Origin: Sinomonas humi | GTDB taxonomy: Bacteria > Actinomycetota > Actinomycetes > Actinomycetales > Micrococcaceae | DNA: 64,000 bases | Assembly (NCBI RefSeq): GCF_000802235.1 | Contig: NZ_JTDL01000149.1 | Coordinates: 1 to 64,000 of the forward strand | Reading direction: 5' to 3' | Shown: positions 4,979 to 36,743 of the stretch, one piece after another | Position numbering within the stretch: position 1 is the first letter of the stretch | How the letters are laid out: the number at the start of each line of letters is the position of its first letter | Translations under genes and position numbers: made by a program | The notes under the pieces: generated by a model | Database searches by the model: none | Seen by the model: only the letters and a program-made list of their open reading frames with translations | What the model was told of the DNA's origin: nothing

Positions 4979-4986
4979 GAGAACCG

Positions 4987-10394: not shown

Positions 10395-11333
10395 TCAGCG
10401 CTTTCCAGCCGACGGGAGAGGCTGCGTGAGCTTTTGACGGACATCCTCAGGCAGCGTGGCCAGCATCTCCCCAGGATGGACACGACGCGGGCGACGAGCA
10501 CAGCCCTGTGCGTATCCCTTTGCCACCGCTGCGGCCCACTGCTTCTTATCCGTTGAATTGAGGCCGTAGTAGACCGTCTGATGGAGCAGGTTGCCCAGTG
10601 CGACGACCTTGGTTGCCGGCAGAGCCTTGCGCTCTCGAATGAACCACAGGTTGTTGCGGATGTGGTAGAAGATTCGTGGACCTAGGTCCTTTGCCTTCGC
10701 CGCGACATCGGGGTGGTTGACCTGACTGGCGGGGACAACCATTGCGGGCGCCATCTGAGAGAGCCGGTGGGTGTACTCCGAGTCATCGATCCAGATGAAG
10801 AAGTCAGAGAATGGCAGATGGGTGGTCTTTGCGAGTTCTAGGTTTATGAGGACACCCACGAAAGTCGCAGCTTCGATGGCAATCGCATCGTACTCATGTG
10901 CCTCAACCTGCTTGCCCGCGTCCTGACTGATGACGGGCGGGTTCCGACGGTTAAACGTGTCGCGACCTGCGGTGACCAGCGACGCAAGGAACGAAGGCTT
11001 GGGGCTCATCGTCGCAAAGAGGTCAGCGAGAGGAGCAAGGGCGTCGAGCTCCGGACACGCGTCGTCATCCATCAGCCAAGCGGCTTCATGTCCGCGTGCG
11101 ATCGCGATCTCCACGCCCCATGCAAAGCCCCCAGCCCCACCGAGATTCTCGCCGGTCTCGAACAGGACCACATCTGGGTGCTCGTCGCGGATGTACTCGG
11201 CACTTCCGTCGGTTGACCCGTTGTCAACCACGATGATCTCGTCTGGCATTCGGGTCTGCCCCTTGAGGGCGGACAGGCATTCTTTGAGGAAGCCGAGGCG
11301 GTTGAACGATACGACGACTGCGGCGATGGACAC
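10395..11333 (-). CDS. Family 2 glycosyltransferase, GlfT1-like
   Basis: A 312-residue enzyme whose N-terminal half reads AAVVVSFNRLGFLKECL, IIVVDNGSTDGSAEYI, ENLGGAGGFAWGVEIA and AAWLMDDDACPELDAL. The GGAGGFxxG and DDD pattern is that of galactofuranosyl-/rhamnosyl-transferases of the GlfT1 type, which start galactan chains. FIWIDDSEYTHRL near residue 200 is the matching acidic region of this family. I chose the GTG at 11333 because AGGAA sits 7 bases upstream and the fold starts right there; a longer frame to 11498 has no support. A role in priming or building the galactofuranose polymer made by the genes at 29-32 kb is plausible but unproven. Confidence 0.8.
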   Translation of the reverse strand: MSIAAVVVSFNRLGFLKECLSALKGQTRMPDEIIVVDNGSTDGSAEYIRDEHPDVVLFETGENLGGAGGFAWGVEIAIARGHEAAWLMDDDACPELDALAPLADLFATMSPKPSFLASLVTAGRDTFNRRNPPVISQDAGKQVEAHEYDAIAIEAATFVGVLINLELAKTTHLPFSDFFIWIDDSEYTHRLSQMAPAMVVPASQVNHPDVAAKAKDLGPRIFYHIRNNLWFIRERKALPATKVVALGNLLHQTVYYGLNSTDKKQWAAAVAKGYAQGCARRPRRVHPGEMLATLPEDVRQKLTQPLPSAGKR

Positions 11334-11488
11334 AGAAGTTCCTGTCTTCAGGCTAGAGCGATCGCCCCCAATAGTAGCGGAGGTGCGACGACGGCCTCGC
11401 GATCGATCCCCGGTAGACTGTTGAAGGCCCGCGTGGGCTCCGTGCCGTGGCCCCGCGCCGCGCATGCAGGAAAAGGAGGAGTCCGGCC

Positions 11489-12763: not shown

Positions 12764-14082
12764 CAGTCTCGTCCACGACGCGCGGGCCCGTACGTCCCCG
12801 CACAGGACGGCTCTCCGGCGTCGCAATCCCGGTTGCCATTGTGATGGCTGGAACAGCCCTTTCGCTTTTCCGGCTGCCGGCAACCGCCCAAGACACCCTG
12901 TGGGCCGAGGACGGAGGCATCTTCCTCAACGGTGCACTTCGGAACCGCAGCCTCTCCCAGATATTTGCCCCTTATCAGGGCTATCTTCATGTGATCCCCC
13001 GATTCGCCGCATGGTTTGCCGTCACATTCCTGCCGCCGAACTCGTATGCGTTGGCCTTTACTGCGCTCAGCTGCCTCGCCGTCGGCGTCGTCGCCGCCCT
13101 CATCTGGCACTGCTCAAGCGCCCTTTCACGCAACACATACGTCCGCCTGGCGTGGGCCGCAATTCCCGTTCTCGTAGCCGCCGGGCCGCGGGAGACCCTT
13201 GGAAATTTCGCGAACCTACACTGGTATCTCCTTTGCCTCATGCCCTGGCTCCTCATCAAGCGCCCCGCGTCAGTGCGCGAGAACGTCCTCCTCACGCTGG
13301 CCACGCTTTTCTCGGCGTTCACTGAGATCCAGACGGCGCTGTTCATTCCGCTGTTCCTCTTCCGGTTCAAGGACCGCGCCTTCTGGCCGCCGCGGCTCGC
13401 ACTCCTAGTCGGGGTTGCGTGCCAGATCATCACGGACCTGGTCTTCCCCCGCAGTGCTCCCACAGACCCATCCGTCAATTGGTGGTCGGTCATCGAAGGC
13501 TGGTTCCTCAACAGCAGCTCAGCCATCGTGTACGGCTCGTCACAGCAAATCATTCTGACCGTCACGCGCTTCGGATGGGTGCCTGTCGCGCTTGCAGCTG
13601 TACCGTTCCTCACCGCGTTCGTCATGGCGCTCGTGAGGGGCAGCCGGATGGAGCGCCTCATGGCGTGCGTCTTCCTCCTCGCTTCCATTGGGGTGTGGTC
13701 AGCCGCTCAGGCCATGAACTTCCAGCCGTATTTCGACTACGCCCGATTCAATGCGACGCAGTGGCAGAGCTTCTTCCTCTCGCGCTACACCTTGGCGCCG
13801 TCAATGTTCCTCCTTGACCTCGCACCCCTCGTCGCAGTCGTCGCAACCCGGATCAGCGGAGTTGCACTTCCGGCGATCCTCGGCGCATTCGCCGTCGTCC
13901 TTGCCGTTTACTTCTTCCCGCCCACGGTCGGCAGGGATCACGGGCCCACGTGGTCGACGGGGGTCCAGACGGCGCGCTCGGAGTGTCGCGACACCCCTGC
14001 AGCCACCGTGGAACGCGTGCCTATTGCACCGACTGGATGGACCTACGACAAGGTCCTTCTGCCGTGCGACATGCTGAGATAG
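12760..14082 (+). CDS. Polytopic membrane protein, GT-C-like, unassigned
   Basis: The 440-residue protein has a short basic N-terminus and about ten hydrophobic segments. The first loop after TM1 contains DTLWAEDGGIFLNGAL and then YQGYLHVIPRFAAW. An acidic motif placed there is characteristic of GT-C glycosyltransferases, which use lipid-linked sugars outside the membrane. No close family is recognised. The C-terminal 40 residues are soluble and hold a Cys pair (SECRDTP...LLPCDMLR), which suggests an exported tail. The ATG overlaps the flippase stop by four bases. It could attach a side sugar or act as a polymerase (Wzy) for the flipped unit; the sequence does not decide. Confidence 0.65.
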   Translation: MTVSSTTRGPVRPRTGRLSGVAIPVAIVMAGTALSLFRLPATAQDTLWAEDGGIFLNGALRNRSLSQIFAPYQGYLHVIPRFAAWFAVTFLPPNSYALAFTALSCLAVGVVAALIWHCSSALSRNTYVRLAWAAIPVLVAAGPRETLGNFANLHWYLLCLMPWLLIKRPASVRENVLLTLATLFSAFTEIQTALFIPLFLFRFKDRAFWPPRLALLVGVACQIITDLVFPRSAPTDPSVNWWSVIEGWFLNSSSAIVYGSSQQIILTVTRFGWVPVALAAVPFLTAFVMALVRGSRMERLMACVFLLASIGVWSAAQAMNFQPYFDYARFNATQWQSFFLSRYTLAPSMFLLDLAPLVAVVATRISGVALPAILGAFAVVLAVYFFPPTVGRDHGPTWSTGVQTARSECRDTPAATVERVPIAPTGWTYDKVLLPCDMLR

Positions 14083-14228
14083 CCGGGACGTGGGGACGTC
14101 GGAACAGTTATGGATCAGCTGTGAAGCTCTCTGCGCAAGCACGATCTGGGAGGAAGCTTCGGCGGCCATCCACTAGCCTTGTATGGTCGCGGTCGCGGCA
14201 TCGCACCTTGAAGGAGAAGTAAGTCCGG

Positions 14229-15257
14229 ATGGACATCCAGAATCACTTCTACGGGCACTCGGCTGTCCTCGCAGGCCATGCGGGGCTCCGTGCACCCCGG
14301 CATATCCCTGGCCTCTATCAGCATGGATGGACCCCGGTTACTCCCCTCCGGACACACTTCGCAGACCTCGCACACGCCACGCCTCCCGGCAATCTCTTCG
14401 TCTGGTCCCACGACTCGCGGGGGTGGACAGAGCGCGAGTCACGGATGGAAACCGGATTCTCCAGCACGCCGATCGGTGCGGCCGCGCTATATCTCGCCCG
14501 CCATGTCGAGCAATCGGGCATGCTTCCCGAAAGATCTATTGACTCAGTCGTCTTCCCCTTCCACGGAACCCGCCTCGTTTCGGTCGAAGGGGACCAAGCC
14601 GGCTTTGCCCGAGAGGTCTTCGAACGCGAAGGCTCCGCGGTGGTCTGCATGCACGTGGACGATATGCAGAAGCCCGAGATCGTGAAGGCGTGGAAAGACG
14701 CCGGCCACATCATCACGACGGCGGGAGAGCGGCGCGACCCGCTGTTCCTCGCTCGCGTCATGTGGCTCGTCATGAGCGCCAAGAAGATCGTCTCCAACCG
14801 TCTCGCAACTGCACTGGTCTATGCGGCCGCCGTCGACACTCCTGTCCATATCTATGGCCCTCATTTCCAGATCGCGGGCATCCAGGAGACATCGTCCGAA
14901 GAGTATCTCCGCGAGCTCTGGCCCGAGTTCTACGAGGAGGAGCCGAACACGGCTCAGCTCAGGAAGATCGCCGAGCAGGAGCTCGGAGAGGCCTACCTGC
15001 GCTCCCCTCTCGAGCTACGGAAGGTCCTCGGCTGGGACAAGCGCAACCCCCGGCCCTTCATCGACTACTGGTTGCGTTCACCACTCGCGAAGGCCGAGGC
15101 CATCCTTGGGCTCCGCGACAGGAAAGTCGGTCCGCTCGTGAACGAGGTCGAGGTCTCGCCCTTCCAATTCTTCAAGAACCCGTTCGAGCACCTCCCCGGC
15201 GCCCTCCCCCGGACCGCCTCGACGACCCTCGTGGCGCCCTCGCTCGACCGTGACTGA
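14229..15257 (+). CDS. Unrecognised soluble protein in nonulosonate locus
   Basis: I do not recognise a family for this 342-residue protein. It has no signal peptide or membrane segment. The start MDIQNHFYGHSAVLAGHAGLR contains several His. The middle alternates hydrophobic strands and helices. The segment KKIVSNRLATALVYAAAVDTPVHIYGP resembles the late nucleotide-binding region of GT-B transferases, where a SxxxTALxYA helix is followed by a strand and a donor-binding turn. It starts behind AAGGAGAAG and overlaps the next flippase gene by 8 bases. With that flippase and pseI just downstream, it is a candidate for the pseudaminic acid transferase of the locus, by context only. Confidence 0.55.
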   Translation: MDIQNHFYGHSAVLAGHAGLRAPRHIPGLYQHGWTPVTPLRTHFADLAHATPPGNLFVWSHDSRGWTERESRMETGFSSTPIGAAALYLARHVEQSGMLPERSIDSVVFPFHGTRLVSVEGDQAGFAREVFEREGSAVVCMHVDDMQKPEIVKAWKDAGHIITTAGERRDPLFLARVMWLVMSAKKIVSNRLATALVYAAAVDTPVHIYGPHFQIAGIQETSSEEYLRELWPEFYEEEPNTAQLRKIAEQELGEAYLRSPLELRKVLGWDKRNPRPFIDYWLRSPLAKAEAILGLRDRKVGPLVNEVEVSPFQFFKNPFEHLPGALPRTASTTLVAPSLDRD

Positions 15258-16644
15258 CGCCGCGGTCGGGACGCGCCCCAGCAACGCGCGGCAATCCCTG
15301 TACTACCTCCTTGGAGCGGCGCTCCAAGGAACGGGCGCCCTCGTTGTCCAGCCGTTCTCGATCCGCATACTGAGCCCGACGGAATGGGGGCGTGTCGGCG
15401 TCTCCATCGTCCTGCTCCAGATTGGCCAAGTCGTGTTGTCCGCAGGCCTACCCCTCGCCATCAGCCGCGCCTACTTCGACCCGTCGGGCGGCCCTGCGAA
15501 GGCGCGTGCGATTCACGGGGCCAACATCATCCTTGGAACAGGTCTCGCCATCCTTGCAGCCGTCGGCTACTTCGCCGCGGCGCCCGACAAGTCAAGCGCT
15601 GGCGGGTTCGCCTGGGCGCTCGCTGCAACCGGGTTCCTCAGCGTCGTCGTCAGCTCCCAGGCTCTGCTGCGGAGCCAGCATCGCGCCCTCTCCTTCGTCC
15701 TTCTGAGCGGTGGCGCTTCGTTGGGCGCCCATTTGGGAGGACTGGTCGGGATCCTTGCCTTCGGTCACACGGCGACCATCTACCTGGCTTCCTTCACAGT
15801 CGTGATGGTGGCTACGGCTGTCATATCGCTGATCCTGACGCGGCCGTCGCTCCCTTGGCGTCAGCGCGCAGCGGTCTCGGCGGCCTTTCGGCTCGGTCTC
15901 CCCGTCCTGCCGCACAGCATCGCGATCATCCTGCTGCTCCAAGGTGACACCTTCCTCGTCCAGCACTTTCAGGGCGCAACCTCAGTAGGGCGGTACGTCG
16001 CTGCAGCGGCCTTCGCGCTTGGGCCCTTCGCCGTCCTCTCCGGACTCAACAACGTCTGGACGACTCGCATCTTCGAAGCCGCCCATGGAGCGAAGCTCGT
16101 GCCGAATGTACGCGCCGTCGGCCGGGAGGTCGCCCTCGTGGCGGCCGGATTGGGGCTCTGCGGCACAGCTGCGGCAACCGTGGGAATGGTTGTCCTCAAG
16201 GGTCTTGACCACGAGGCCATTCAGCTCGCCAAGGTCCTGCCCGGCGTGTCAGTTGGCTACGCGCTCTACCTCGTCGGCATGTCGACCCTCTTCGCAGTAG
16301 GCCGAACCAAGGCACTCACGTGGGCGACCCCGCTCGTCGTCGTGGTCGCTGCTGGATTGGCTTGGTTCCCCGCGCAGTCTCCTCAGTACTGGCAGCTGGG
16401 AGCCATCCGTGTTCTCGTCTTCGCGCTGCTAGGCGCCGTGTACGCCGCGCTCGCTCTGCGGGAAGCACACCACGTCATTCCCCTGCGCCCGTTCATAGGC
16501 GCCCTCGTATTCGTCGCCGTCGCCATCGCCGCCAATCTGCTGCTCCCCACGACCGTCCTCGTCGGGGTGATCACATTGGTGATCGGCCTGGGTCTCGCCG
16601 GAGCCGGTTTTTGGGCAGTACGACGGCGCGGACTAGCATCGTAG
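15250..16644 (+). CDS. Second Wzx-like polysaccharide flippase
   Basis: A 464-residue membrane protein with about 12-14 segments of the polysaccharide-transport (PST/Wzx) type. The start region SLYYLLGAALQGTGALVVQPFSIRILSPTEWGRVGV is the typical first helix and loop. It is clearly different in sequence from the flippase at 11489, so the locus probably exports two different lipid-linked units. The GTG at 15250 overlaps the end of the unrecognised gene, and pseI follows after about 50 bp. This arrangement suggests it moves the pseudaminate-containing unit (inference). Confidence 0.82.
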   Translation: MTDAAVGTRPSNARQSLYYLLGAALQGTGALVVQPFSIRILSPTEWGRVGVSIVLLQIGQVVLSAGLPLAISRAYFDPSGGPAKARAIHGANIILGTGLAILAAVGYFAAAPDKSSAGGFAWALAATGFLSVVVSSQALLRSQHRALSFVLLSGGASLGAHLGGLVGILAFGHTATIYLASFTVVMVATAVISLILTRPSLPWRQRAAVSAAFRLGLPVLPHSIAIILLLQGDTFLVQHFQGATSVGRYVAAAAFALGPFAVLSGLNNVWTTRIFEAAHGAKLVPNVRAVGREVALVAAGLGLCGTAAATVGMVVLKGLDHEAIQLAKVLPGVSVGYALYLVGMSTLFAVGRTKALTWATPLVVVVAAGLAWFPAQSPQYWQLGAIRVLVFALLGAVYAALALREAHHVIPLRPFIGALVFVAVAIAANLLLPTTVLVGVITLVIGLGLAGAGFWAVRRRGLAS

Positions 16645-16696
16645 ACACCCGCCCAGGCGTCCCAGGACGCCACGATCCTAAGGATTGCACCCCTCC

Positions 16697-17749
16697 ATGC
16701 AGCCCTCCATTGATGTCGCCGGCCACGAAATCGGTTCCGCAAATCGACCGTTCATCATCGCCGAGGTCTCGGGCAACCACAACGGAAGTCTCGAGCGCGC
16801 GCTCGAAATCGTGGACGCCGTGGCTGCCTCAGGCGCGCAGGCGGTGAAGCTCCAGACCTACACTGCGGACACGATCACGATCGATTCTGATCGGCCCGAA
16901 TTCCGCATCAGCGCCGATCACCCTCTCTGGGGCGGAAGCAACCTCTACCAGCTCTATACCGAAGCGCACACCCCCTGGGACTGGCACGCTCCCCTTTTCG
17001 AGCGCGCCCGTGAACATGGGCTTGTCCCCTTCTCGAGCCCGTTCGATTCAACCGCCGTAGAGCTTCTCGAGTCCCTCGATGCTCCCCTGTACAAGATCGC
17101 TTCCCTCGAAATCGGCGACCTTCCCTTGCTGCGCCGTGTGGCGCAGACCGGCAAGCCCGTCATCCTCTCCAACGGGGCCGCATCGCTGAGCGACATAGAC
17201 ACCGCCGTTCGGACCATCCGGGCGGAGGGCAACGACCAGATCGTCGTGCTGGCCTGCACCTCGTCCTACCCCGCCTCCCCCTCCGAATCGAACCTCCGCA
17301 CCATTCCTGTGCTGCGCGATGCGTTCGGGGTCCAGGTCGGTCTCTCGGACCACACGATGGGGATCGGTGCAGCTATTGCGGCGGTGGCTCTCGGCGCAAG
17401 CGTAGTCGAGAAGCACGTCACCCTGCGGAGGGCCGACGGCGGAGTCGATTCGGACTTCTCGCTAGAGCCCCATGAACTCGCCGCCCTCGTCACGGAGAGC
17501 GGCACGGCGTGGGAGGCTCTCGGCTCGGCGGCCATCACCCCGACGAGCAGCGAGGGCGAGAGCCAGCGGCTGCGACGCTCGCTCTACGTGGTCAAGCCCG
17601 TACGGGCCGGCGACCTGGTCACTCCGGAAAACGTTCGGTCGATCCGACCTGCTGGCGGTCTCGCGCCTGCCCATTACGAGTCGGTGATGGGACGGGCCTT
17701 CCGAATCGACTGCGAGGCCGGCACGCCCCTGACCTGGGAGCTCGTCTAG
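16697..17749 (+). CDS. pseI: Pseudaminic acid synthase PseI
   Basis: PseI condenses phosphoenolpyruvate with 2,4-diacetamido-2,4,6-trideoxy-L-altrose to give pseudaminic acid. The 350-residue protein has the NeuB-type TIM barrel followed by a C-terminal SAF/antifreeze-like domain (about 285-350, LYVVKPVRAGDLVTPENVRS). PFIIAEVSGNHNGSLERA, KLQTYTADTITI and LYQLYTEAHTPWDWHAPLF match the pseudaminate branch better than NeuB or LegI. The metal-binding His regions are GLSDHTMG and VEKHVTL. The ATG at 16697 sits 12 bases after TAAGGA; the TTG at 16685 is less likely. It is the only pse gene on the plus strand. Confidence 0.88.
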   Translation: MQPSIDVAGHEIGSANRPFIIAEVSGNHNGSLERALEIVDAVAASGAQAVKLQTYTADTITIDSDRPEFRISADHPLWGGSNLYQLYTEAHTPWDWHAPLFERAREHGLVPFSSPFDSTAVELLESLDAPLYKIASLEIGDLPLLRRVAQTGKPVILSNGAASLSDIDTAVRTIRAEGNDQIVVLACTSSYPASPSESNLRTIPVLRDAFGVQVGLSDHTMGIGAAIAAVALGASVVEKHVTLRRADGGVDSDFSLEPHELAALVTESGTAWEALGSAAITPTSSEGESQRLRRSLYVVKPVRAGDLVTPENVRSIRPAGGLAPAHYESVMGRAFRIDCEAGTPLTWELV

Positions 17750-17793
17750 CAGCCCAGGGGAAGCGGGCTTAGCCGTCGAGACGCTAGAAGCCC

Positions 17794-19032
17794 TCAGCCC
17801 TCGGGCTTGTTCACTGGAGCGGCGGCGGCGATGTTGCCAGAGGTCCGGGGGCGCAGGTTCGACTCGTCGTACTGTCCGATCCCGATCTCGGCAGCGAGCT
17901 TCCCGTCCGTCTCCGCGTAGTACGTTCCCACCCATTTGGTGCCCCGGAGAAACGGCTGGAACTTCCCGCAAGTCCCACGAAGGCTCGACTCGAGGAGCCC
18001 CCCGCCGTCCTGCTCGCTCCAGTTCGACTGCACGAGCGGCTTGGACGGGTCGAACAGCTGCACGAGCCTCTGGCCACCGCCGGCAGCTCGGATGAAGCAC
18101 AGGACGCGCCCGTTGTGCGCAATGCGCAAGGCGGGCCACGCGTCGTAGCGCAGCCCAGGGCTGGGGCTGGGGAGTTGGATGGGCGCGGCCCACGTGCGTC
18201 CCCGATCCTTGGACTGGGTGACGTAGGCATTGGTGCGCGCTGATCCCCGGACGACAGCAACCCAATTCGTGGGCGAGACTTCGGCGAAGTCCCATTCGGT
18301 CGCGTCTGAGCGGTGTGGGGCCAGAACGTCTACGGGCGACGACCACGGCCCGAGCGGGTTCTTCGCGGTCACGAGGGACGCTCTCCAATAGCCCGCCACC
18401 TTGCGGTAGACCGGCATCCGCCAAAGACCGTCTGCTGAGCGACGAAGCCCTCCCGGTGTGAGGGCCGACGAGAGGACTTCTTGAGAGGGAGCCCACGTCA
18501 CGCCGTCATCGTCGCTGTAGGTTATCCAGGTGGCCCCGTTGAGGCTGCGCGCCCCCGTGAAGAAGGTCAGCCAAATCCTTGAGCCCCGTGGCTCCCTGTA
18601 GAGGAACGGGTCCCGGATATCGATTTTCTCAGCAGCGAAGCTGGAGACGAGCGTGGGAGAACCCCAGGTCACGCCCGCATCCGCCGAACGCCGCACATAC
18701 AGCTTGCCCGGATCGCTGCCGTACGCAAATGCATGGGCACTCCCAGCGCGATACGCAAGCACATAGTGACCGTTGGCGGCGTCGACCATGGCGGGAATGA
18801 GGTAGTTGTCTTCCCCGTCACTGATCTTGAGGGGGCGGCCGAAGGACTTCGAGAGCGAGAGGTCTGCGGTGACTGCCGAAGGCTGCCGGAGGGTCCCCCC
18901 GGTGCTTTTCGGCTTATCGTTCGAGGGCTGCGATACTCCGCACGACGCCACTGTCAGACCGAAAAGAGCAGCCACTCCCGAGAGTGCCAGCGCCTCTCGG
19001 CGAGATAGGTGTGGACGGGAACGATCTGACAT
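17794..19032 (-). CDS. Tat-type lipoprotein with sialidase/BNR Asp-boxes
   Basis: This 412-residue protein starts with a twin-arginine signal (LSRREALALSG) ending in a lipobox with Cys31 (TVASC), so it is probably exported folded and lipid-anchored. The mature part is a predicted beta-propeller with three canonical Asp-boxes, SADAGVTW (116-123), SDDDGVTW and SKDRGRTW. NYLIP at 76-80 occupies the place of the sialidase FRIP motif, but the Arg is replaced by Leu, so classical sialidase activity is uncertain. The ATG has AAGGA upstream. It lies just after the pse operon on the same strand, which suggests it binds, trims or modifies the nonulosonate on the surface (inference). Confidence 0.8.
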   Translation of the reverse strand: MSDRSRPHLSRREALALSGVAALFGLTVASCGVSQPSNDKPKSTGGTLRQPSAVTADLSLSKSFGRPLKISDGEDNYLIPAMVDAANGHYVLAYRAGSAHAFAYGSDPGKLYVRRSADAGVTWGSPTLVSSFAAEKIDIRDPFLYREPRGSRIWLTFFTGARSLNGATWITYSDDDGVTWAPSQEVLSSALTPGGLRRSADGLWRMPVYRKVAGYWRASLVTAKNPLGPWSSPVDVLAPHRSDATEWDFAEVSPTNWVAVVRGSARTNAYVTQSKDRGRTWAAPIQLPSPSPGLRYDAWPALRIAHNGRVLCFIRAAGGGQRLVQLFDPSKPLVQSNWSEQDGGGLLESSLRGTCGKFQPFLRGTKWVGTYYAETDGKLAAEIGIGQYDESNLRPRTSGNIAAAAPVNKPEG

Positions 19033-19120
19033 GAGTTCCTTTGACTCGAACAGGCAGCAAGGAAAGGATAACCCAGCATTTGGGGCACCTATTCACCCGG
19101 TCTCATGTCGCCGCAGCGGG

Positions 19121-20620
19121 TCAGGGACGCCGGGCTGCGGCCTTCACGAGCCGGTACCACCCGCCGTCGTCACTGGTCTCACGCCGGGCAACGCCACCTT
19201 CATAGCCAGCACCCACGAACAGTCGGTAGGACGGTTCGTTGGACGTGCGCATGACGGCGTGGAGGGTCGCCTCGGGATGGTCGCGGCGGAACCGCTCCTC
19301 CGCCTTATTCAGGATCGTCCTCGCGATACCCCGGCCGCGGGCGGGCGGCGCGAGGGTTATCGAAACCTCCCAGTCGCGATCGCCATGCGCGTCGAACCTG
19401 ACGGTCCCAGCGGCGAGTCCTTCCGCCTCGGCCAAGAGGAGCACGACGTCGGGACGCTGCAAAGCGCGCTCGAGCCACGCGACGTGGCCGTCCCACTGCA
19501 GTTCCCCGGTTGAGCGTGAGGCAGCCCGAACCGACGGATCGTTGCGCCAGTGAAAAAGCTGAGCGGCGTCCGAGAGCGTGGCAGGCCGCACCGAGACACC
19601 CCCACCGCTAACTGAAAGCTCCTCCCACAGCCTCACAATCCTGGAGGCGCCGGCGCCGTCGACGATGGAACGCGCGGCGCCTGCGAGTCTGGCGCGCAGG
19701 CTGGAATCCGTCAGGACTCCTCTGAGCGTCTGCACAGACCCTTCCGGATCGTCACCGAAGGCGCCGAGACCCGCGGCCATTCCGCGTTCGACCGCGAAGC
19801 CATAGTTCTGGCTTTGATTCTCCACGAGCTGGATGATCGCCATCGGCGTGCCGAGCGCGGCGAGTTCCCAGATCGTCGTTCCGGCTCCGCTGATCACGAG
19901 ATCGGCAGCGGCGAAGAGACGCGGCAGGTCACTCGACTGCTCGACCGAGTCGAGGCTGAGGCCTTGGGGCAGCTCGCCCGTCTCCGGTGCCTGGCCAAAG
20001 GGAGCCACGACCGTGCAATGCGAGGCCACGCCAGCCTCGGCCCACATGCGGACCGCCGCCGCCGTCGCGTTTCGGGCATCCGTTCCGCCCATGACCGTGA
20101 CAACCTCGAGGACATTGGCGTCGCTCCCCCGGCTCTCAGACGGCCTGCGGGCCCCCGCTCGCAGTTCACCGACGAGGGCACGGACAGGGATGAAGTCCGC
20201 ACCCCGCGCGAGGCGGAGCGTCCCATCGTCGGGGCGGCATTCGAGTTCGGCGCCCGCCGACGGATCGACCGCCAAGTCTGCAGGACGCCTGCCGAACGAG
20301 CCATCCTCCATCGAGGAGAGCAGGACCCCGACCTCGGCGAGTTGTCCGCGGACGTCGCCCTCGTCGTCGTACGTGTCGAGATGGACGACGTCGGCGCCCT
20401 CCTGCTGCGCCAGGCGCGCCAAAGCGCTGGCATCAGCAGGCCGAGGGAAGAGTTCGCCGGCCACTCCTTCGAGGAGTCGGCGGCCCAGCGGGCTTTCGAC
20501 GTCTCCCGCCGCTAATACGTCCCACCCTGCTTCATGTGCCGCCTCGCCGACGGAAACGCAGCGCACGACGTGCCCGAGCCCCTGGCTCTTCGTCGAATCA
20601 CAGCGGAGGAGAACGCGCAC
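19121..20620 (-). CDS. pseGH: Fused UDP-sugar hydrolase PseG and GNAT N-acetyltransferase PseH
   Basis: One 499-residue chain combines two pseudaminate steps. Residues 1 to about 335 are PseG, which releases UDP from UDP-2,4-diacetamido-trideoxy-altrose. It shows GLGHVVRCVSVGEAA at the start, VTVMGGTDARN, and SGAGTTIWELAALGTPMAIIQLVENQ, the GT-B-like nucleotide site. Residues about 345-495 are a GNAT domain with VRPATLSDAAQLFHWRND and APPARGRGIARTIL, the acetyl-CoA loop, matching PseH, which acetylates the 4-amino group. The GTG start follows GGAGGG. One base separates it from the pseF stop. It is encoded last of the four-gene pse operon. Confidence 0.88.
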   Translation of the reverse strand: MRVLLRCDSTKSQGLGHVVRCVSVGEAAHEAGWDVLAAGDVESPLGRRLLEGVAGELFPRPADASALARLAQQEGADVVHLDTYDDEGDVRGQLAEVGVLLSSMEDGSFGRRPADLAVDPSAGAELECRPDDGTLRLARGADFIPVRALVGELRAGARRPSESRGSDANVLEVVTVMGGTDARNATAAAVRMWAEAGVASHCTVVAPFGQAPETGELPQGLSLDSVEQSSDLPRLFAAADLVISGAGTTIWELAALGTPMAIIQLVENQSQNYGFAVERGMAAGLGAFGDDPEGSVQTLRGVLTDSSLRARLAGAARSIVDGAGASRIVRLWEELSVSGGGVSVRPATLSDAAQLFHWRNDPSVRAASRSTGELQWDGHVAWLERALQRPDVVLLLAEAEGLAAGTVRFDAHGDRDWEVSITLAPPARGRGIARTILNKAEERFRRDHPEATLHAVMRTSNEPSYRLFVGAGYEGGVARRETSDDGGWYRLVKAAARRP

Positions 20621-20621
20621 G

Positions 20622-21374
20622 TCAGCCCTCCAGCAGAGCCTTCTGCTCTACGTGTGCGTTGAGCGCGACGATGTCCGGACGGTCCGTCAGGATTCGGACC
20701 ACGTCGCGCCACCTCGCCGGCCGCGACGGAAGCAGGGCGACGAGCTCGTCCAACAGCCGAGCGTCCTCTTCGGTGTCCAAGGTCACTCGAAGGTGGTCCG
20801 AGGGCGGGCGGAAGGAGAGGGAAGCAAGCCCGAAGCCTGAGCCCTCCTCGTACAGGGCGCTCGTGACGTGAGCGCGGTGATGCGACTCGTGCCGGGCGTC
20901 AGCTGCACGAAGGGCCGAAACGGCCGCCACTTCGACGTCCAGCCCGCGTGGAAGCGAGCGGTTCTGCGTTGTGGAGACGTAGTCGAGGGCCGGGTCGATC
21001 CTCCACAGCGCGACGGCTTGGGAGATGATCTCCGGGTCCAGCAGGGGGCAGTCGGCCGTGAGCCGGACGACGGCGTCCGCCCCGGACTCTCGGGCTGCCA
21101 ACAGGAAGCGGCTCAGAACGTCGTCCTGACTCCCCCGGACGACCCGCGTCCCATGCGCGTCGGCGAAGGCCTCAACGGGGTCGTCAGCAGGCTCGGTCGA
21201 GGTCGCGATAAGGACTTCGTCGACGCCCCGCGCCGCCCGCGCAGCCCTCAGCACCCACGCCAGGACTGGCTCGCCGCCGAGGTCGCGCAGCACCTTGCCC
21301 GGCAGGCGGGTCGACTGCATCCGAGCCTGCACCACGGCGACCACCCGGCCTGAGGTTGCCTGCGCCGTCGTCAT
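20622..21374 (-). CDS. pseF: CMP-pseudaminate cytidylyltransferase (SpsF/PseF type)
   Basis: PseF activates pseudaminic acid as the CMP-sugar. The 250-residue protein is a nucleotidyltransferase with VAVVQARMQSTRLPGKVLRDLGGEPVL at its start (residues 11-37), the signature of the SpsF cytidylyltransferase group, and VVRLTADCPLLDPEII with the metal-binding Asp. Classical Campylobacter PseF is somewhat different, so the assignment rests partly on its place between pseC and pseGH. The ATG overlaps the pseC stop by four bases. Confidence 0.85.
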   Translation of the reverse strand: MTTAQATSGRVVAVVQARMQSTRLPGKVLRDLGGEPVLAWVLRAARAARGVDEVLIATSTEPADDPVEAFADAHGTRVVRGSQDDVLSRFLLAARESGADAVVRLTADCPLLDPEIISQAVALWRIDPALDYVSTTQNRSLPRGLDVEVAAVSALRAADARHESHHRAHVTSALYEEGSGFGLASLSFRPPSDHLRVTLDTEEDARLLDELVALLPSRPARWRDVVRILTDRPDIVALNAHVEQKALLEG

Positions 21375-22498
21375 GATCCTGCGACCTCAAGGACGTTCTC
21401 GATCACCATGCCGACCTGCTCGTCGCTCAGCCCCGGGAACAGCGGCAGGGAGATCTCCTGGCTGTAGTACTTCTCGGCCTCGGGGCACATGCCGCGGCGG
21501 TAGCCGAGATCCTCGAAGACCGGGTGCCAGTACGCCGGGATGTAGTTGACCTGCACCCCGATCCCCCGCCGACGGAGTTCTTCGAAGATCGCCTTCCGGC
21601 GATCCGCCTCGACCCGCAGCGGGTAGAGATGCCATGCAGGGGCGGCACCCTCGACGGTTCCCGGCACCGTGAGGTGCGGGTTGCCGGCAAAGGCTCCGTT
21701 GTACGCGTCGTGGATCTCCTGACGGCGACGCCGGAACCCCTCGAGGCGCGAGAGCTGGCTGATGCCCAGCGCGCACAGGACGTCCGGGAGACGGTAGTTC
21801 AGGCCGAAGTCATGCACCTCCTGGTGCCAGGGCCCCTCGTCGGGGAACCGGAGCGCGTCGCGGTCCCGCACAAGCCCTTGCCCCTTGAAACGGCGCGCGC
21901 GGGCCGCGAGTTCGGGGTCGGGGCTGACGACCGCGCCGCCCTCCGCCGTCGTCATGTTCTTCGTGGGGAAGAACGAGAAGGTGGTGAGGTCGGCGCCCGC
22001 ACCCACGGGCACGCCGTTCAGGACCGACCCGATCGAATGCGCCGCGTCCTCCACGAAGAGCGCATCGTGGCGGTGGGCCATCGCGGCGAAGGCGGCGGAG
22101 TCCACCGGAAGCCCGGCATAGTCCACGGCCGTGACCACCCGGGTTCGCGGCGTGACAGCGGCCTCGGCTGAGTCCAAGTCCAGATTTCCGGTCGCCGGAT
22201 CGATGTCCGCGAAGACGATCTTCGCCCCTGCGATCGCCGCGGCGGCAGCGGTGGCAACGAACGTCAAGGGAGTCGTGACAACCTCGTCGCCCGTCCGGAC
22301 CCCCGCGGCGACGTATGCGACATGGAGCGCCGCAGTGCCCGAGGTCACGGCAACCGCTTCCGAGCCGCCGGCGACCTCGGAGAGCGCGCGCTCGAACTCG
22401 TCCACCTTCGGCCCCGTGGTCAGCCAGTCCCCTCGCAGCACCTCGGCGACCGCTTCGATGTCGGCCTCGTTGATCGACTGGCGCCCGTACGGCAGCAT
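21371..22498 (-). CDS. pseC: UDP-4-amino-4,6-dideoxy-N-acetyl-L-altrosamine aminotransferase PseC
   Basis: This PLP-dependent DegT/DnrJ/EryC1 family enzyme puts the 4-amino group on the PseB product. It is 375 residues long. MLPYGRQSINEADIEAV begins the protein. VTSGTAALHVAY, VEDAAHSIGS and FFPTKNMTTAEGG, with the PLP lysine, follow in order. RFKGQG and NYRLPDVLCALGISQL are also typical. I chose the ATG at 22498; a frame open to 22585 only extends into pseB. The gene starts 5 bases after the pseB stop. Confidence 0.93.
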   Translation of the reverse strand: MLPYGRQSINEADIEAVAEVLRGDWLTTGPKVDEFERALSEVAGGSEAVAVTSGTAALHVAYVAAGVRTGDEVVTTPLTFVATAAAAAIAGAKIVFADIDPATGNLDLDSAEAAVTPRTRVVTAVDYAGLPVDSAAFAAMAHRHDALFVEDAAHSIGSVLNGVPVGAGADLTTFSFFPTKNMTTAEGGAVVSPDPELAARARRFKGQGLVRDRDALRFPDEGPWHQEVHDFGLNYRLPDVLCALGISQLSRLEGFRRRRQEIHDAYNGAFAGNPHLTVPGTVEGAAPAWHLYPLRVEADRRKAIFEELRRRGIGVQVNYIPAYWHPVFEDLGYRRGMCPEAEKYYSQEISLPLFPGLSDEQVGMVIENVLEVAGS

Positions 22499-22503
22499 TC
22501 GGC

Positions 22504-23490
22504 TCAGAACCCCTCTGCTGCGATCATCGCCTCGAGTTCCTCCACGGAGAGGAACACCTCGTTGCCGTCGGACTGGTAGCTCCACCCGTCCTGGACCGGC
22601 ACCGCCCCCTCCGGAACCTCGTACCGCCAGCCCACCAGATGCGGCGTGACGATGTAGCGGCCCTCGACCGAGACCGTACGCCGCGAGTCATCCGCCGCGA
22701 TCATCTCCTCGTGGAGCTTCTCCCCCGGACGGATCCCGATCTCATGGGTCGCCGCGTTGCGGTCCACCGCCGCAGCCAAGTCCATCAGGCGGATCGAGGG
22801 GATCTTCGGGACGTAGAGCTCCCCGCCCTGCATCATCTCGAAGGAATCAAGGACGAACTTCACCGCCTGCTCCAGAGTGATCCAGAAACGGGTCATGCGC
22901 TTGTCAGTCACCGGAAGGGACTTCCCCTCAGCGGCCAGACGGCGCCAGATCGGCACGATCGAGCCCCGCGAGCCCATCACGTTGCCGTACCGCACCACGC
23001 AGAAGCGCGTGTCATAGGCAGCCGCGTAGTGGTTGCCGGAGATGAACAGGCGATCGGCGCACAGCTTCGTAGCCCCGTACAGGTTCACCGGGCTCGAGGC
23101 CTTGTCCGTCGAAAGGGCCACGACCTTCTTCACCCCCGCATCGATCGCGGCATCGATGACGTTCTGGGATCCCCCGACGTTCGTCCGGACATACTCGAAC
23201 GGGTTGTACTCCGCCGTGTCCACCTGCTTCAGGGCCGCCGCGTGGATCACGTAGTCCACCCCGTGGAACGCCCGGTGGAGCCGATCACGATCACGGATGT
23301 CCCCGATGAACCAGCGCAGCCTCGGATCGTTCTCGAACATGTTCCGGACCTCGAGCTGCTTCAGCTCGTCACGGCTGAACACGACCAGCCTACGAACGTT
23401 GTGGCGCCCCAGAAGCTCTCGGATGAGCGCCTTCCCAAGAGATCCTGTGCCGCCCGTAATCAGAACGGACGAACCCTCGAGAAGGGACAT
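22504..23490 (-). CDS. pseB: UDP-GlcNAc 4,6-dehydratase (5-inverting) PseB
   Basis: PseB is the first enzyme of pseudaminic acid synthesis and converts UDP-GlcNAc to the 4-keto-6-deoxy-L-arabino sugar. The 328-residue protein has VLITGGTGSLGKAL at residues 9-22, FSRDELKQ, and AAALKQVDTAEYNPFEYVRTNV, a hallmark of the PseB/FlaA1 group. STDKASSPVNLYGATK holds the catalytic YxxxK, and RYGNVMGSRGSIVP follows. The ATG follows AAGGTGG. It is the first gene of pseB-pseC-pseF-pseGH; its promoter should lie in the 104-bp gap before the next gene. Confidence 0.95.
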   Translation of the reverse strand: MSLLEGSSVLITGGTGSLGKALIRELLGRHNVRRLVVFSRDELKQLEVRNMFENDPRLRWFIGDIRDRDRLHRAFHGVDYVIHAAALKQVDTAEYNPFEYVRTNVGGSQNVIDAAIDAGVKKVVALSTDKASSPVNLYGATKLCADRLFISGNHYAAAYDTRFCVVRYGNVMGSRGSIVPIWRRLAAEGKSLPVTDKRMTRFWITLEQAVKFVLDSFEMMQGGELYVPKIPSIRLMDLAAAVDRNAATHEIGIRPGEKLHEEMIAADDSRRTVSVEGRYIVTPHLVGWRYEVPEGAVPVQDGWSYQSDGNEVFLSVEELEAMIAAEGF

Positions 23491-23594
23491 AAGCCAACCA
23501 CCTTGAACCTGAACAATTATCGGGTCACAACGCGTCCACCTGCCGAAGCGACCTTGTCCAGCCTACCAGCGGACCTGTGAGCCACCTTTGCAGA

Positions 23595-25664
23595 TCACCC
23601 TTGGCATGCAACCACCTTGTAGAGCCGCGCGGCACCCTGCTGGTCGATGAGCTGAACGGCGTGCGAGCCTTGCAGGTCTTCCACGCCGTGGTACGGGTGG
23701 TTCTCGTGGTGAATCTCCTGGGTGCCGAAGTCAAGGACATATTGCACATGTAGGTCCTTGATTGCGGTGCACGCAGCCGAGTTTGCTGGAGCATCGCGCA
23801 GGCCGGTATCGACGGCCTGAATCTGCGGAGTGATCGGGGAGAGAATGTGAAGCTGAAGGGTCTTCCGGTCAGCGAGGGCATAGGCCAGCGCCGTTCCCGT
23901 GTAGGGCGAACCAGCAATGACCGCGTTCGATGGAACATGCGTGTCGAGCCGGTCCAAAATCGCCATCTCGTCGGTAGTGACAAGAGGCGAGTTCCCTCGT
24001 AGGTCGTAGAGACCTCTCGCATTCACTCGCTCAGTGGCCACCTGCCCGTATTGGGAGGCCAAGACAAGAAGAACGGTGAGCACGAGGAGACCGGCGCCGC
24101 TGAGAAGGGGCTGGATCTGCATTCGCTGGGGCTTGCTGCGACGTGCCGCCCCGAGCGCGGCCCCCGCCGAGGCGGAAACAGCTGGGAACCGAGTCGTGTC
24201 ACCGGCGGTCGACGCATCAATGTTCGACGGCGAGCCCGAAATTCGAGCGGCCGCTCGCCCCCACGCTCGAGCCAATGCCAGCGCTCCCCCCACAGCCACC
24301 GGAATGAGAACCATGGGCAAGAGTGAGGCTAGACGGTAGCTGTCGTTGTACCAGACCGCCGTCACAAAATTGCGGAAACTGCCTGCAGGGTAGCCGGAAA
24401 CGATCACATAGAGGCCAAGCCCCATAAGGAAGGTGATGAGTGCAGGCCACATCCGCCGGTTACGAACGCAGTAGAACAAGCCGACGACCAGAAGAACCAC
24501 GATGACGAATGTGGGGGCCATACGCATAGGGGCGCCGAGCAATCCTTCCCCGACCGCCTGGGCGATAGTTTGCGTAGGAGGCCAAAATGCGGCGGACAGT
24601 GGCGGACGCACAGCCTTCCACACCACCACTGACAGGATCAGGAAGACAAGCAGAAGAACCGACGGGCCGACAATCCGCCGGCGGCTCTTCACGCTCGAGC
24701 GCAGGACGCCCAGCACGTGCCTCGCGTACACCAGGATGAACAGCGGAATGCTGAAGGCCAACAGCGCCATCGCAGAATTGGGGTGCGCAACCGACATGCC
24801 GATCATCGCAGCGCCCAACATCAACCACTCGCGCAGAGCCGGAATGTTCGGCGCATGGGACAACCTCATTGCCCGCAACAACAGGGCGAGACAAGCTGGC
24901 AGAAGAGCGAGACCGAGATAATTCGGGTAGAGGACACCGAAGTCGATCATCAACAGGGGGAACGCCGCAAACCCCGCTGACAGGAGAGCTCCCGTGAAAA
25001 TCGCGAGCGGTCTGCTTCCAAAGATGGTACGGACGAGAAATACGACGGATACGGGCCAGACCATAGCTCCGATGGCGAGATTTGTGGCGTTCACGGCCAG
25101 AGGTATGGGAACGCCTGCCAGCCCTTGCACGAGGGAAGCAAGTGCATGCCAACCAGCAGGGTAGAACGACGACCCCGCCATCAGGCCAACGGTGAGCGAG
25201 GATGCAGAGCCCGTGTCTTGGATGTACCTCAGCGCATTCAGATGAAAGACGTTGTCGAATGTCTGGGAAAAGCTGTCAGGGCTGACGAAGGCGATGAGCA
25301 GGCTGCGACCAATGAGAGCGGCGGTGAATAGCAGGCCGAGCACATATGCGGCGTAGTGGATCCGATGCCCTCTCCAACGCGGGAGAAGTCTTTCCCCGGT
25401 GAGCGGCCAGCGCAGCAGCCGACGCAGCGCCCAGACAACGAGCCCGCCCAAGAGCGTCGCGACTGCGAGCGGCAGGATTCCCCAGCGCAGGTGGACCAGC
25501 GGGGCGAGCGTGGAAGCGATCGCGATGAAAGACATCGAGAATGCTGGTGCGAGTCCGACGAGCGCGTACCCTCGAAGTCCAAACGCCAGGCTCGCGAGAA
25601 GACCCGGAACCACCAGCACGAGCACGGCAATGCCTATCGCCGGGACCGCTCCAAGCCAACTCAT
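23595..25664 (-). CDS. Large membrane protein, DUF6541/GT-C-like
   Basis: The 689-residue protein has about 13 hydrophobic segments and a C-terminal extracytoplasmic domain of about 170 residues. The loop after the third or fourth helix reads SFSQTFDNVFHLNALRYIQDTG, with an Asp and a His in the position where GT-C enzymes bind lipid-linked donors, and then FYPAGWHALASLVQG. This matches the actinobacterial DUF6541 membrane family, which I recall from arabinofuranosyl- and glycosyl-transfer contexts. The C-terminal domain has two Cys (NSAACTAIKD, VVACQG). It is the last gene of the glf-glfT2-wzm-wzt operon, 61 bp after the acyltransferase. A role in adding side sugars to the exported polymer is inferred. 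Confidence 0.7.
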   Translation of the reverse strand: MSWLGAVPAIGIAVLVLVVPGLLASLAFGLRGYALVGLAPAFSMSFIAIASTLAPLVHLRWGILPLAVATLLGGLVVWALRRLLRWPLTGERLLPRWRGHRIHYAAYVLGLLFTAALIGRSLLIAFVSPDSFSQTFDNVFHLNALRYIQDTGSASSLTVGLMAGSSFYPAGWHALASLVQGLAGVPIPLAVNATNLAIGAMVWPVSVVFLVRTIFGSRPLAIFTGALLSAGFAAFPLLMIDFGVLYPNYLGLALLPACLALLLRAMRLSHAPNIPALREWLMLGAAMIGMSVAHPNSAMALLAFSIPLFILVYARHVLGVLRSSVKSRRRIVGPSVLLLVFLILSVVVWKAVRPPLSAAFWPPTQTIAQAVGEGLLGAPMRMAPTFVIVVLLVVGLFYCVRNRRMWPALITFLMGLGLYVIVSGYPAGSFRNFVTAVWYNDSYRLASLLPMVLIPVAVGGALALARAWGRAAARISGSPSNIDASTAGDTTRFPAVSASAGAALGAARRSKPQRMQIQPLLSGAGLLVLTVLLVLASQYGQVATERVNARGLYDLRGNSPLVTTDEMAILDRLDTHVPSNAVIAGSPYTGTALAYALADRKTLQLHILSPITPQIQAVDTGLRDAPANSAACTAIKDLHVQYVLDFGTQEIHHENHPYHGVEDLQGSHAVQLIDQQGAARLYKVVACQG

Positions 25665-25725
25665 GATCTCTTCCCCTTCTCATGACAAAACTCACGGTGC
25701 AGTTGATCCACAAACCGAACCCCAC

Positions 25726-27777
25726 TCACGAGACCACCCCGAGATGATCTGCTAGGAGCCCCGCCAACGACTTCGCGAAGGTGGCGGTCATGTGGTTGTC
25801 CCTGTAAACGACGATATTCCCGATGACAGCCGGACAAGTGCCGTTACGACAAAAGTAGGGGTGCAAGTCGAGCACGTTCACACCATCGACCTGCCGCGCG
25901 GCTGAGACGAGATCGTCTTCAGGACGTTGATCGGGGAAGCTGCAGGAGGACTCACCTGCCCCTGCTCGCTGTAAGCATTCCGCGGGGCTGCTCGGTGGGA
26001 AAGGATTGTCTGCCAGGACATGCACTCGGATACCCGCCTTGCCCAGCGTAGTGAGGGCGTCGACGTATCCGGACGTCAAAGGCTGGCTCGCGTCCCAGGT
26101 CCATCCGAGTGCGTTCTTGTATCCGCTGCTGGTCATTCCCGCCAGCAGCACAAGGTCGGGGCGATCCCGCAGGAGCCTCTGAAGGGTGACCTTATTCTGA
26201 TCCGAACAATTGGCAAAGCTCGTGGTGCCTGAGCGAGGCGGAGTTGTGGAAAAGGGGCACCCGTTGCGCACCATCGCGTGAATCTTCAGCGGAACGCGCT
26301 TGGAGATCTCGACAAGCGAATCGACATATTGACCAGCATGCGAGTCACCGACGATAGCCACGGTTGGAGCCGAGGACTCGCGGGGAGCCCCATACCAGCA
26401 CTGATCGTCGGGGGTCTTTTCCGGATCGTAGACACCACAATCGGTGGTGTACGTAACGGGTACGTCCTGAGCGGCCACCGCCGGGTCGGGCCGGGCAGGA
26501 AGGCCGCTCGAGACCGGCCGAGGATTGCTTCCCCAAGCCATCGCACCCGGGTAGTCCTGATTTGAGAGTCCTGCCTGCAGTTCGGCCCGCTTGCCTTCGA
26601 TCACCTGCCACGGCCCCCATGCCGTGAGGGCGACGACGAGCGAAGTGACCGCGGCGATGCGATAAGAACCCATGGTCCTCGATCTCCCCGACCGTGACTC
26701 CGGCCTCGGGCGCCGAAACCTCTCCTCGATGAGGTAGTAGGAAACGGCAGCGAGGGCAAGGCTCAACGTTGCAAGAACGATGGCTTCCCGAATCCGAAGT
26801 TCCCTGCCGAGGATCGCCACGGTGAAGACCACCAACGGCCAATGCCATAGATAGAGCGAGTAGGAGACATCTCCGACGAAGACGATCGGCTTCCAGCTCA
26901 ATATGCGGCCAGCTGACCAGCGGTTGTGAAGGCGAGCACCATCTCCCGACCTGAGCAGCAGCACTGTGCCAAGAACCGGCACGAGAGCAATGTAGCCCGG
27001 AAACGCCATGTCCGTGGAGAGCGTTCTCGCCGCAATGACGATTGCGGCGAATCCGGTCCAAGTCGCCAGGGCCGACCAGCCGGAAATCTGTTCGAGCGCG
27101 GTTTGCGGGACGAGAGCTGCCAAGCCGCCGACGGCCAGCTCCCAAAGCCTGGTGGTTGTCGCAAAATAGGCGAGCGTGTGCGCCGCGTTGCTCAGGAAGA
27201 CGCTATAGACGAGCGAGGCGCTGGCTATCAGTGCAAGCACAAGAACCGCGCGGCCTGCAATGGACCGGTCTGGTCGCCGCGACGACAGACGGAGGACAAC
27301 CCAAAGCAAGACCGGCACGAGCAGGTAGAACTGCTCTTCGACTGCGAGCGACCAGAAGTGTTGAATCGGCGACACCGCCGCGGTGGCGCCAGCATAGGAG
27401 GTGCTGGAAAACGCCTGATGCCAGTTCTGCACCTGAAGCAAGGAAAACAACACGTCCGACGAAACGGCCTGCCAACGGCTCCCCGGCAGGAGGACCACGG
27501 TAGCCGCAACGACGGCGAGAAGCACGACTGCGGCTGCGGGAACAAGCCGACGGATGCGCCGTGAGTAGAACGTCACAATATCCACCGTCTGGTCCCGCGC
27601 GGCCTCCCGGACCAGAGATCCAATAATGAGGAAGCCTGAGATGACGAAGAAGACGTCTACCCCAATGAAGCCACCCGGCAGGACACTTGGCCGCAGGTGA
27701 TAGACGACGACAAGGCTCACAGCAAGCGCGCGAAGTCCTTGGATGTCGCTGCGCTGAGAGGCCCCGCCCCGGCTCAC
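25726..27777 (-). CDS. Acyltransferase-3 with C-terminal SGNH domain (OafA type)
   Basis: A 683-residue protein. The N-terminal 370 residues are the multi-TM acyltransferase-3 module (GLRALAVSLVVVYHLRPSVLPGGFIGVDVFFVISGFLI, residues about 14-51, with the catalytic His). The C-terminal part, after a linker, is an SGNH hydrolase-like domain outside the membrane, with VAIVGDSHAGQY near residue 477 and YRDNHMTATFAKSL near 660. AT3-SGNH proteins O-acetylate surface polysaccharides and peptidoglycan. The GTG start overlaps the wzt stop (GTGA). The operon suggests that the galactofuranose polymer is its substrate. Confidence 0.88.
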   Translation of the reverse strand: MSRGGASQRSDIQGLRALAVSLVVVYHLRPSVLPGGFIGVDVFFVISGFLIIGSLVREAARDQTVDIVTFYSRRIRRLVPAAAVVLLAVVAATVVLLPGSRWQAVSSDVLFSLLQVQNWHQAFSSTSYAGATAAVSPIQHFWSLAVEEQFYLLVPVLLWVVLRLSSRRPDRSIAGRAVLVLALIASASLVYSVFLSNAAHTLAYFATTTRLWELAVGGLAALVPQTALEQISGWSALATWTGFAAIVIAARTLSTDMAFPGYIALVPVLGTVLLLRSGDGARLHNRWSAGRILSWKPIVFVGDVSYSLYLWHWPLVVFTVAILGRELRIREAIVLATLSLALAAVSYYLIEERFRRPRPESRSGRSRTMGSYRIAAVTSLVVALTAWGPWQVIEGKRAELQAGLSNQDYPGAMAWGSNPRPVSSGLPARPDPAVAAQDVPVTYTTDCGVYDPEKTPDDQCWYGAPRESSAPTVAIVGDSHAGQYVDSLVEISKRVPLKIHAMVRNGCPFSTTPPRSGTTSFANCSDQNKVTLQRLLRDRPDLVLLAGMTSSGYKNALGWTWDASQPLTSGYVDALTTLGKAGIRVHVLADNPFPPSSPAECLQRAGAGESSCSFPDQRPEDDLVSAARQVDGVNVLDLHPYFCRNGTCPAVIGNIVVYRDNHMTATFAKSLAGLLADHLGVVS

Positions 27778-29368: not shown

Positions 29369-36743
<7,375 letters not shown>

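Follow-up and report, generated by a model that had tools for sequence, protein, structure and literature searches.

Pseudaminic acid (Pse) has been studied mainly on the flagella and capsules of Gram-negative bacteria. How would a high-GC Gram-positive bacterium make this sugar, and where on the cell would it be displayed? We addressed this question with 64,000 nucleotides of DNA from Sinomonas humi of the Micrococcaceae (NZ_JTDL01000149.1, positions 1 to 64,000; hereafter the window), a section of the 75,993-base contig C56 of a 4.42-Mb genome assembled in 156 contigs. The window carries a nine-gene cassette that is predicted to encode all six Pse functions as a complete, intact pathway, together with a flippase and a candidate transferase of unclassified family, P0008. 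It is highly probable, in our judgement, that the cell produces cytidine monophosphate (CMP)-activated Pse, and we moderately favor the further reading that it makes 5,7-diacyl Pse for display on a surface glycan.

Pathway enzymes

The genes assigned to the pathway are the following.

22504–23490, minus strand: pseB, predicted inverting UDP-N-acetylglucosamine (UDP-GlcNAc) 4,6-dehydratase; TIGR03589, 474.3 bits (cut-off 407.75)
21371–22498, minus strand: pseC, predicted aminotransferase; TIGR03588, 424.8 bits (cut-off 423.5, barely exceeded)
20622–21374, minus strand: pseF-type cytidylyltransferase, SpsF/KdsB-like; Pfam CTP_transf_3, 96.4 bits; PDB entry 6oew, 115 bits
19121–20620, minus strand: pseGH, predicted fusion of UDP-sugar hydrolase (TIGR03590, residues 1–272) and N-acetyltransferase (TIGR03585, residues 348–474)
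16697–17749, plus strand: pseI, predicted pseudaminic acid synthase; TIGR03586, 463.6 bits (cut-off 340.25)

A preliminary description, made from the letters of this DNA, had placed the six Pse functions here in a high-GC Gram-positive host, and both the functions and the host hold. PseB, PseC and PseI exceed curated cut-offs with E-values of 1e-127 to 1e-142, and chance is therefore ruled out for these three. The best PDB relative of PseB is 2gn4, titled 'UDP-GlcNAc C6 dehydratase' (344.8 bits; runner-up 231.7), and PseI ranks the Pse synthase 8h2c (257 bits) ahead of SpsE (190) and NeuB (136). PseI residues E27, K55, H223, H244 and R321 align with E25, K53, H215, H236 and R314 of NeuB, which we take to be functional positions, and none of the five varies across 18 rows, consisting of 17 chosen actinobacterial loci and the window. 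The closest solved relatives of PseC are ArnB-type (4lc3, 244 bits), with 2fn6, presumably the Helicobacter pylori PseC, behind them at 180 bits, and the PseC assignment thus rests on TIGR03588 and the operon. The listed pseC open reading frame starts at 22585; the ATG at 22498 is the likely start, and the TIGR03588 match begins at that Met.

The scores of PseG, PseH and PseF, all of which fall under the cut-offs of their models, weigh against the assignment. The fusion protein matches nearly the whole of TIGR03590 at 78.5 bits (cut-off 153.55) and TIGR03585 near full length at 32.4 bits (cut-off 93.1), and its PDB matches are limited to acetyltransferases and one epimerase at E 0.09. In the PseG half, G14, G16 and H17 are invariant in the same 18 rows; H17 is presumably a functional residue. 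The pseF label survives in part: the product is a cytidylyltransferase by family, and its best solved relative, 6oew, is titled 'Cytidylyltransferase', but it reaches only 27.3 bits against the PseF model TIGR03584 (cut-off 205.7) and belongs to another cytidylyltransferase branch.

The described coupling of pseB, pseC, pseF and pseGH in a minus-strand operon is borne out by the spacing: the pseB stop and the likely pseC ATG are 5 bases apart, pseC and pseF overlap by 4 bases, and 1 base separates pseF from pseGH. As also described, pseI is encoded on the plus strand, on the far side of a lipoprotein gene (17794–19032, minus strand).

A probable pseudaminic acid pathway rather than a legionaminate or sialate one

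Which nonulosonate would the enzymes make? PseI scores 463.6 bits with the Pse model versus 277.5 with NeuB_NnaB (cut-off 399.65), PseB 474.3 versus 72.3 with LegB (cut-off 475) and PseC 424.8 versus 196.2 with LegC (cut-off 420). The second-best models are FnlA for PseB (234.8 of 730 bits) and ArnB for PseC (259.9 of 631 bits), and none of NeuB_NnaB, LegB and LegC exceeds its own cut-off. On these scores and, within its reach, the PseI tree, we reject a legionaminate or sialate pathway, in keeping with the Pse-type assignment proposed beforehand. The tree contained 111 sequences (105 distinct) and was rooted by choice on 11 NeuB-like rows, including the paralogue of the same genome; these rows served as comparators in place of named legionaminate (Leg) or sialate (Neu) synthases. 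All 37 named-Actinomycetota rows fall to one side of a single branch (SH-aLRT 99), and so does the window PseI, apart from the NeuB-like paralogue; the preset check, whether PseI would fall in another clade, was thus negative within this set of comparators. The closest named PseI is that of Sinomonas susongensis A31 (92%), in a named set that was gathered by similarity to the query and is biased to near relatives. Two rows of the same family (G296 and G197) and five of the same phylum (G428, G518, G581, G637 and G739) stand outside this group, which suggests more than one entry of the Pse pathway into this phylum.

At E ≤ 0.001, 144 of 395 family genomes contain a match to the PseI model; most of these matches are NeuB-like, of the sort found in a fusion protein on contig C88 of the query genome, and many lie in frames of about 750 amino acids.

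A present-or-absent cassette

12733–23601, no strand: Pse cassette, the presence/absence unit; about 10.87 kb versus 10 bases in G007, contiguous in G013 and G014

The cassette is a present-or-absent unit within Sinomonas, whether by gain or by loss. Its nine genes encode P0007, P0008, the flippase, PseI, the propeller lipoprotein, PseGH, PseF, PseC and PseB. G007, the nearest Pse-negative genome as judged by glfT2 (86%), lacks the entire 10.87 kb at a single clean junction with 10 bases in place: the window flanks 11013–12732 and 23602–25681 align to positions 31525–33287 and 33298–35349 of the G007 stretch. In G013 and G014, two further Sinomonas genomes, the Pse set occurs in identical order, and the window from 11.06 to 25.66 kb aligns unbroken at 77% and 81%, respectively. 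Contamination is ruled out by this synteny in two other assemblies, in one case within a contig of 4.46 Mb. Against these two genomes, the nine cassette genes and two flanking control genes show ratios of nonsynonymous to synonymous change (dN/dS) of 0.035–0.19 and zero internal stops. With the query genome counted, PseI exceeds its cut-off in 3 of 15 Sinomonas, 11 of 395 family and 13 of 396 phylum genomes.

The cassette lies between genes of envelope type.

0.9–4.3 kb: rmlA, rmlB and rmlCD, cassette flank
29.4–33.2 kb: mutase and GlfT2-type genes, cassette flank

The preliminary description took these rhamnose and galactofuranose neighbors as a sign of a new envelope polymer of Micrococcaceae. 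Such a polymer is conjectural, and the link to these genes proves weak. The glfT2 gene is present in 15 of 15 Sinomonas genomes versus PseI in 3 of 15, and rml genes stand in the matching region of four of the five Pse-negative genomes that were read (12 are Pse-negative in all); the fifth, G009, has an rmlA match of only 28%. Given that these genes occur without the cassette, they are not by themselves part of a Pse polymer. Thus, the cassette belongs to a standing envelope locus, yet is separable from it, and Pse may decorate either the glycan of the rhamnose/galactofuranose locus or a separate glycan.

Across Micrococcaceae genera, P0008, the flippase, pseI, pseGH, pseF, pseC and pseB are kept together, with exceptions in L076, where the flippase precedes P0008 on the opposite strand, and L077, where the contig stops within pseC. 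Nor are Pse clusters confined to Micrococcaceae, as they also occur at Cellulomonas, Pseudonocardia, Nocardioides and Microbacterium loci. The locus is a known pathway in a little-studied host group, not one unique to this family.

The candidate pseudaminyltransferase

14229–15257, plus strand: P0008, candidate pseudaminyltransferase of unclassified family; no family match, assigned by genomic context
15250–16644, plus strand: Wzx-type flippase; Polysacc_synt_3 and Polysacc_synt, 33.3 bits each, over the Pfam cut-off

What would transfer Pse to its acceptor? P0008, just beyond the region covered by the preliminary description, is the most interesting part of the locus. Family searches with it were empty (Pfam at E ≤ 1, NCBIfam and PHROGs at E ≤ 0.1), a PDB profile search gave just two chance hits at E 0.91, and there were zero matches among 50,697 phage records at E ≤ 0.01. 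P0008 also has no match at E ≤ 1 to PF05159 (KpsC/KpsS), the Pfam stand-in for family GT118. The PF05159 search was empty across the genome as well, and a KpsS1-like transferase elsewhere was dropped as a candidate. In 16 aligned rows including the window, Y8-G9, H32-G33-W34, H112, N190 and Y209 of P0008 are invariant.

Genomic context points to a role alongside Pse. Of the 11 Micrococcaceae PseI carriers, 8 have P0008 close to pseI, with cross-genus identity of 61–72%. Outside this family, a homologue labelled hypothetical stands one gene past pseI in Aureibacter (Bacteroidota), in a cluster annotated pseB, pseC, pseF and pseI; another lies 7.6 kb from pseI in Nonomuraea; and a third, at 22% identity, starts at most 10 bases from the pseI end in a cyanobacterial bin (L154) whose contig is of unsure origin. 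Among the genome-collection PseI loci, 80 of 305 were kept and 12 of the 80 contain P0008, a count that is no test, since the loci were chosen by PseI. In a phylum survey whose genomes were drawn regardless of PseI, the family occurs in 5 of 396, and four of the five also carry PseI over its cut-off at most 10 kb away. With the query genome excluded, co-occurrence is 3 of 4 versus 12 of 395 (hypergeometric P = 8.5e-5). A single P0008 query found 2 matching records among 72,556 in the plasmid collection, both with pse genes within 8 kb. On this context, we propose that P0008 is a CMP-nonulosonate transferase, chiefly for Pse. For the narrower claim that it is the pseudaminyltransferase of this locus, which would make it one of a new family, the chances appear to us to be even.

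Proposed route

Pse biosynthesis proceeds from PseB through PseC, PseH, PseG and PseI to CMP-Pse. In Sinomonas, PseB would dehydrate UDP-GlcNAc and invert C5, PseC would install the 4-amino group, and the PseH half of the fusion would acetylate the PseC product before the PseG half strips UDP. PseI would then join the altrose derivative to phosphoenolpyruvate, and the SpsF-like enzyme would form CMP-Pse. P0008 may move Pse onto a lipid-linked glycan, both its role and this acceptor being tentative, and the Wzx flippase would export the glycan to a destination that we presume to be wall or capsule. Gene content, family membership, co-inheritance and selection are the direct support that the analysis provides. 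We think it fairly likely that the cassette yields a surface glycan and not a modified flagellin, and the whole chain from synthesis to display with P0008 included as the transferase is rather doubtful.

A broader picture can be drawn, which we offer tentatively and hold to be improbable on balance. P0008 would found a pseudaminyltransferase family common to Actinomycetota, Bacteroidota and Cyanobacteriota, without detectable sequence relationship to KpsC/KpsS; the cassette would be a within-genus surface-antigen switch for a Pse wall polymer in Micrococcaceae; and the propeller lipoprotein would bind or trim that polymer.

Alternative explanations

P0008 might instead be another surface-glycan protein, with Pse transferred by a GT2 enzyme or by P0007, an account that we rate as a serious contender, a little short of even. 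It draws on several points that weigh against P0008 as the transferase. One of the five P0008 carriers of the phylum survey, G619, lacks pse genes throughout the surrounding 19.9 kb, and its homologue sits in a surface-glycan locus.

L177:9418–10281, minus strand: P0008 homologue in G619; neighbors are a WecG/TagA-type transferase, an epimerase and a flippase-like match

Within the 20 kb examined, P0008 is missing from three of the 11 Micrococcaceae PseI carriers, and it is likewise missing from 68 of the 80 genome-collection loci, many of which are short; since there are Pse loci without P0008, other transferases must exist. A double-displacement transferase would require an Asp, and the invariant or near-invariant residues of P0008 in the 16 rows include none. 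Furthermore, the survey profile A1 consists of 16 rows all fetched at pseI loci and favors Pse-linked members, and the genomes are not independent; for these reasons we lowered our estimate for P0008 as the transferase from slightly above even to even. Against this alternative, P0008 is the sole cassette gene beyond the flippase and the pathway enzymes that is retained across Micrococcaceae genera (61–72%), whereas P0007 is restricted to Sinomonas among the loci examined, and P0008 homologues lie at most 10 bases from the pseI end in the cyanobacterial bin and one gene past pseI in Aureibacter.

Could the cassette glycosylate flagellin or another surface protein rather than a polysaccharide? 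Contig C28 of this genome encodes two flagellins, which makes flagellin a possible acceptor and counts against a surface glycan, and flagellar O-glycosylation, partly predicted to involve Pse, is reported for Gram-positive bacteria (PMC13317340). However, the flagellin genes and the cassette sit on different contigs, and the cassette is flanked by polysaccharide genes and carries its own Wzx flippase. A Maf-type flagellin transferase was set aside after a PF01973 search gave zero matches in the genome, a weak result given that its control was positive in archaea only. We consider protein glycosylation unlikely, and less likely still is a product that is another nonulosonate, such as a Pse epimer or a Leg/Aci-type sugar. 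The models define an enzyme class, not the final stereochemistry, and PseG, PseH and PseF are divergent, but PseB, PseC (barely) and PseI exceed Pse-specific equivalog cut-offs while the Leg and Neu models stay under theirs.

Relation to known systems

The Helicobacter and Campylobacter pathway runs in the order PseB-C-H-G-I-F. Sinomonas shares its six functions, and Sinomonas PseB and PseI are closest to solved Pse-pathway enzymes; it differs in the fusion of PseG and PseH and in a cytidylyltransferase that is SpsF/KdsB-like rather than TIGR03584-type. A second likeness is to the Bacillus sps spore-coat operon, in which SpsE, SpsF and SpsG have established roles: SpsE ranks second among the PDB relatives found for Sinomonas PseI (190 bits), and the cytidylyltransferase presumably resembles SpsF. 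The Sinomonas locus, in contrast, appears to be an actinobacterial surface-polysaccharide cassette with P0008 and a flippase.

Kribbella walls contain Pse. Teichulosonic acids are wall polymers free of phosphate that carry a nonulosonate in their chain. A wall nonulosonate, as predicted here for Sinomonas, would resemble the actinobacterial teichulosonic acids described for Kribbella (PMC6113628) and for Streptomyces, whose polymer contains Kdn (PMC7831098). The reaction proposed for P0008, from CMP-Pse to a surface glycan, is that of GT118 KpsS1, a KpsC homologue in a Pse transferase family distinct from the flagellin Maf proteins, as cited in PMC12887879. P0008 differs in having no PF05159 match, the comparison with GT118 being made through PF05159 only. 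Among the matches listed in the open PMC literature, which leaves subscription journals mostly uncovered, no paper on a Micrococcaceae Pse cluster was found.

With a complete, intact and present-or-absent Pse cassette, soil actinobacteria would provide tractable hosts in which to study Pse biology in Gram-positives. Should P0008 prove to be the transferase, it would represent a novel type of pseudaminyltransferase with uses in the synthesis of Pse glycans, and would aid the genome-based detection of Pse surface glycans across several phyla.

Other cassette proteins and neighboring loci

12760–14082, plus strand: membrane protein P0007, possibly a GT-C-like transferase; likely start deduced from its overlap with the preceding gene, open reading frame listed from 12574
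17794–19032, minus strand: lipoprotein with BNR/Asp-box sialidase-like propeller; Pfam BNR_2, 49.2 bits, and PDB sialidase matches
23595–25664, minus strand: DUF6541 membrane protein, outside the presence/absence unit; Pfam DUF6541, 551 bits; retained in G007

P0007 has zero Pfam or NCBIfam hits and a PHROG glucosyltransferase match of 31 bits. The lipoprotein has a lipobox and twin Arg, read directly from the sequence. Close copies (at least 81% identity) occur in 3 of 395 family genomes, its own included, which are the three Pse-positive Sinomonas, and weak partial matches occur in 23 additional family genomes. In a low-confidence alignment to sialidase A (per-segment E 0.95–11, overall 6e-10) that ends before the region of the Tyr nucleophile, L78 replaces the RIP Arg and A103 the acid/base Asp, whereas E246, R262 and R322 are retained; the roles mapped from GH33 onto these positions are our assumption. 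The leucine is present in all three Sinomonas copies. An ordinary GH33 sialidase is unsupported, with these two canonical residues replaced in that alignment, and our guess is that the lipoprotein binds Pse or acts as a non-canonical hydrolase. The BNR/Asp-box propeller is shared with GH33 sialidases and with the Pseudomonas aeruginosa 'pseudaminidase' 2w38 (listed in PMC2716378); 2w38 is absent from the PDB hits of the lipoprotein.

Beside the cassette, the DUF6541 protein is close to envelope loci in several genera. An AT3-SGNH acyltransferase gene (25726–27777, minus strand; SucT-like, below cut-off) is another gene that varies at this locus: it was not found in the matching region of G007, G013 and G014, and relatives at 31–41% stand there in G002 and G011. 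A DUF2304 protein (4648–5355, plus strand) adjoins a GT2 gene. Elsewhere in the genome, the two flagellin genes lie at G000:C28:8693–18107, and the strain may be motile. A second nonulosonate-type locus, G000:C88:228000–246000, encodes a CBS-NeuB-SAF-AP_endonuc_2 fusion (L016:7237–10394, minus strand), with a PseF-like cytidylyltransferase (TIGR03584, 132.7 bits, under cut-off), Wzy_C and glycosyltransferases as neighbors.

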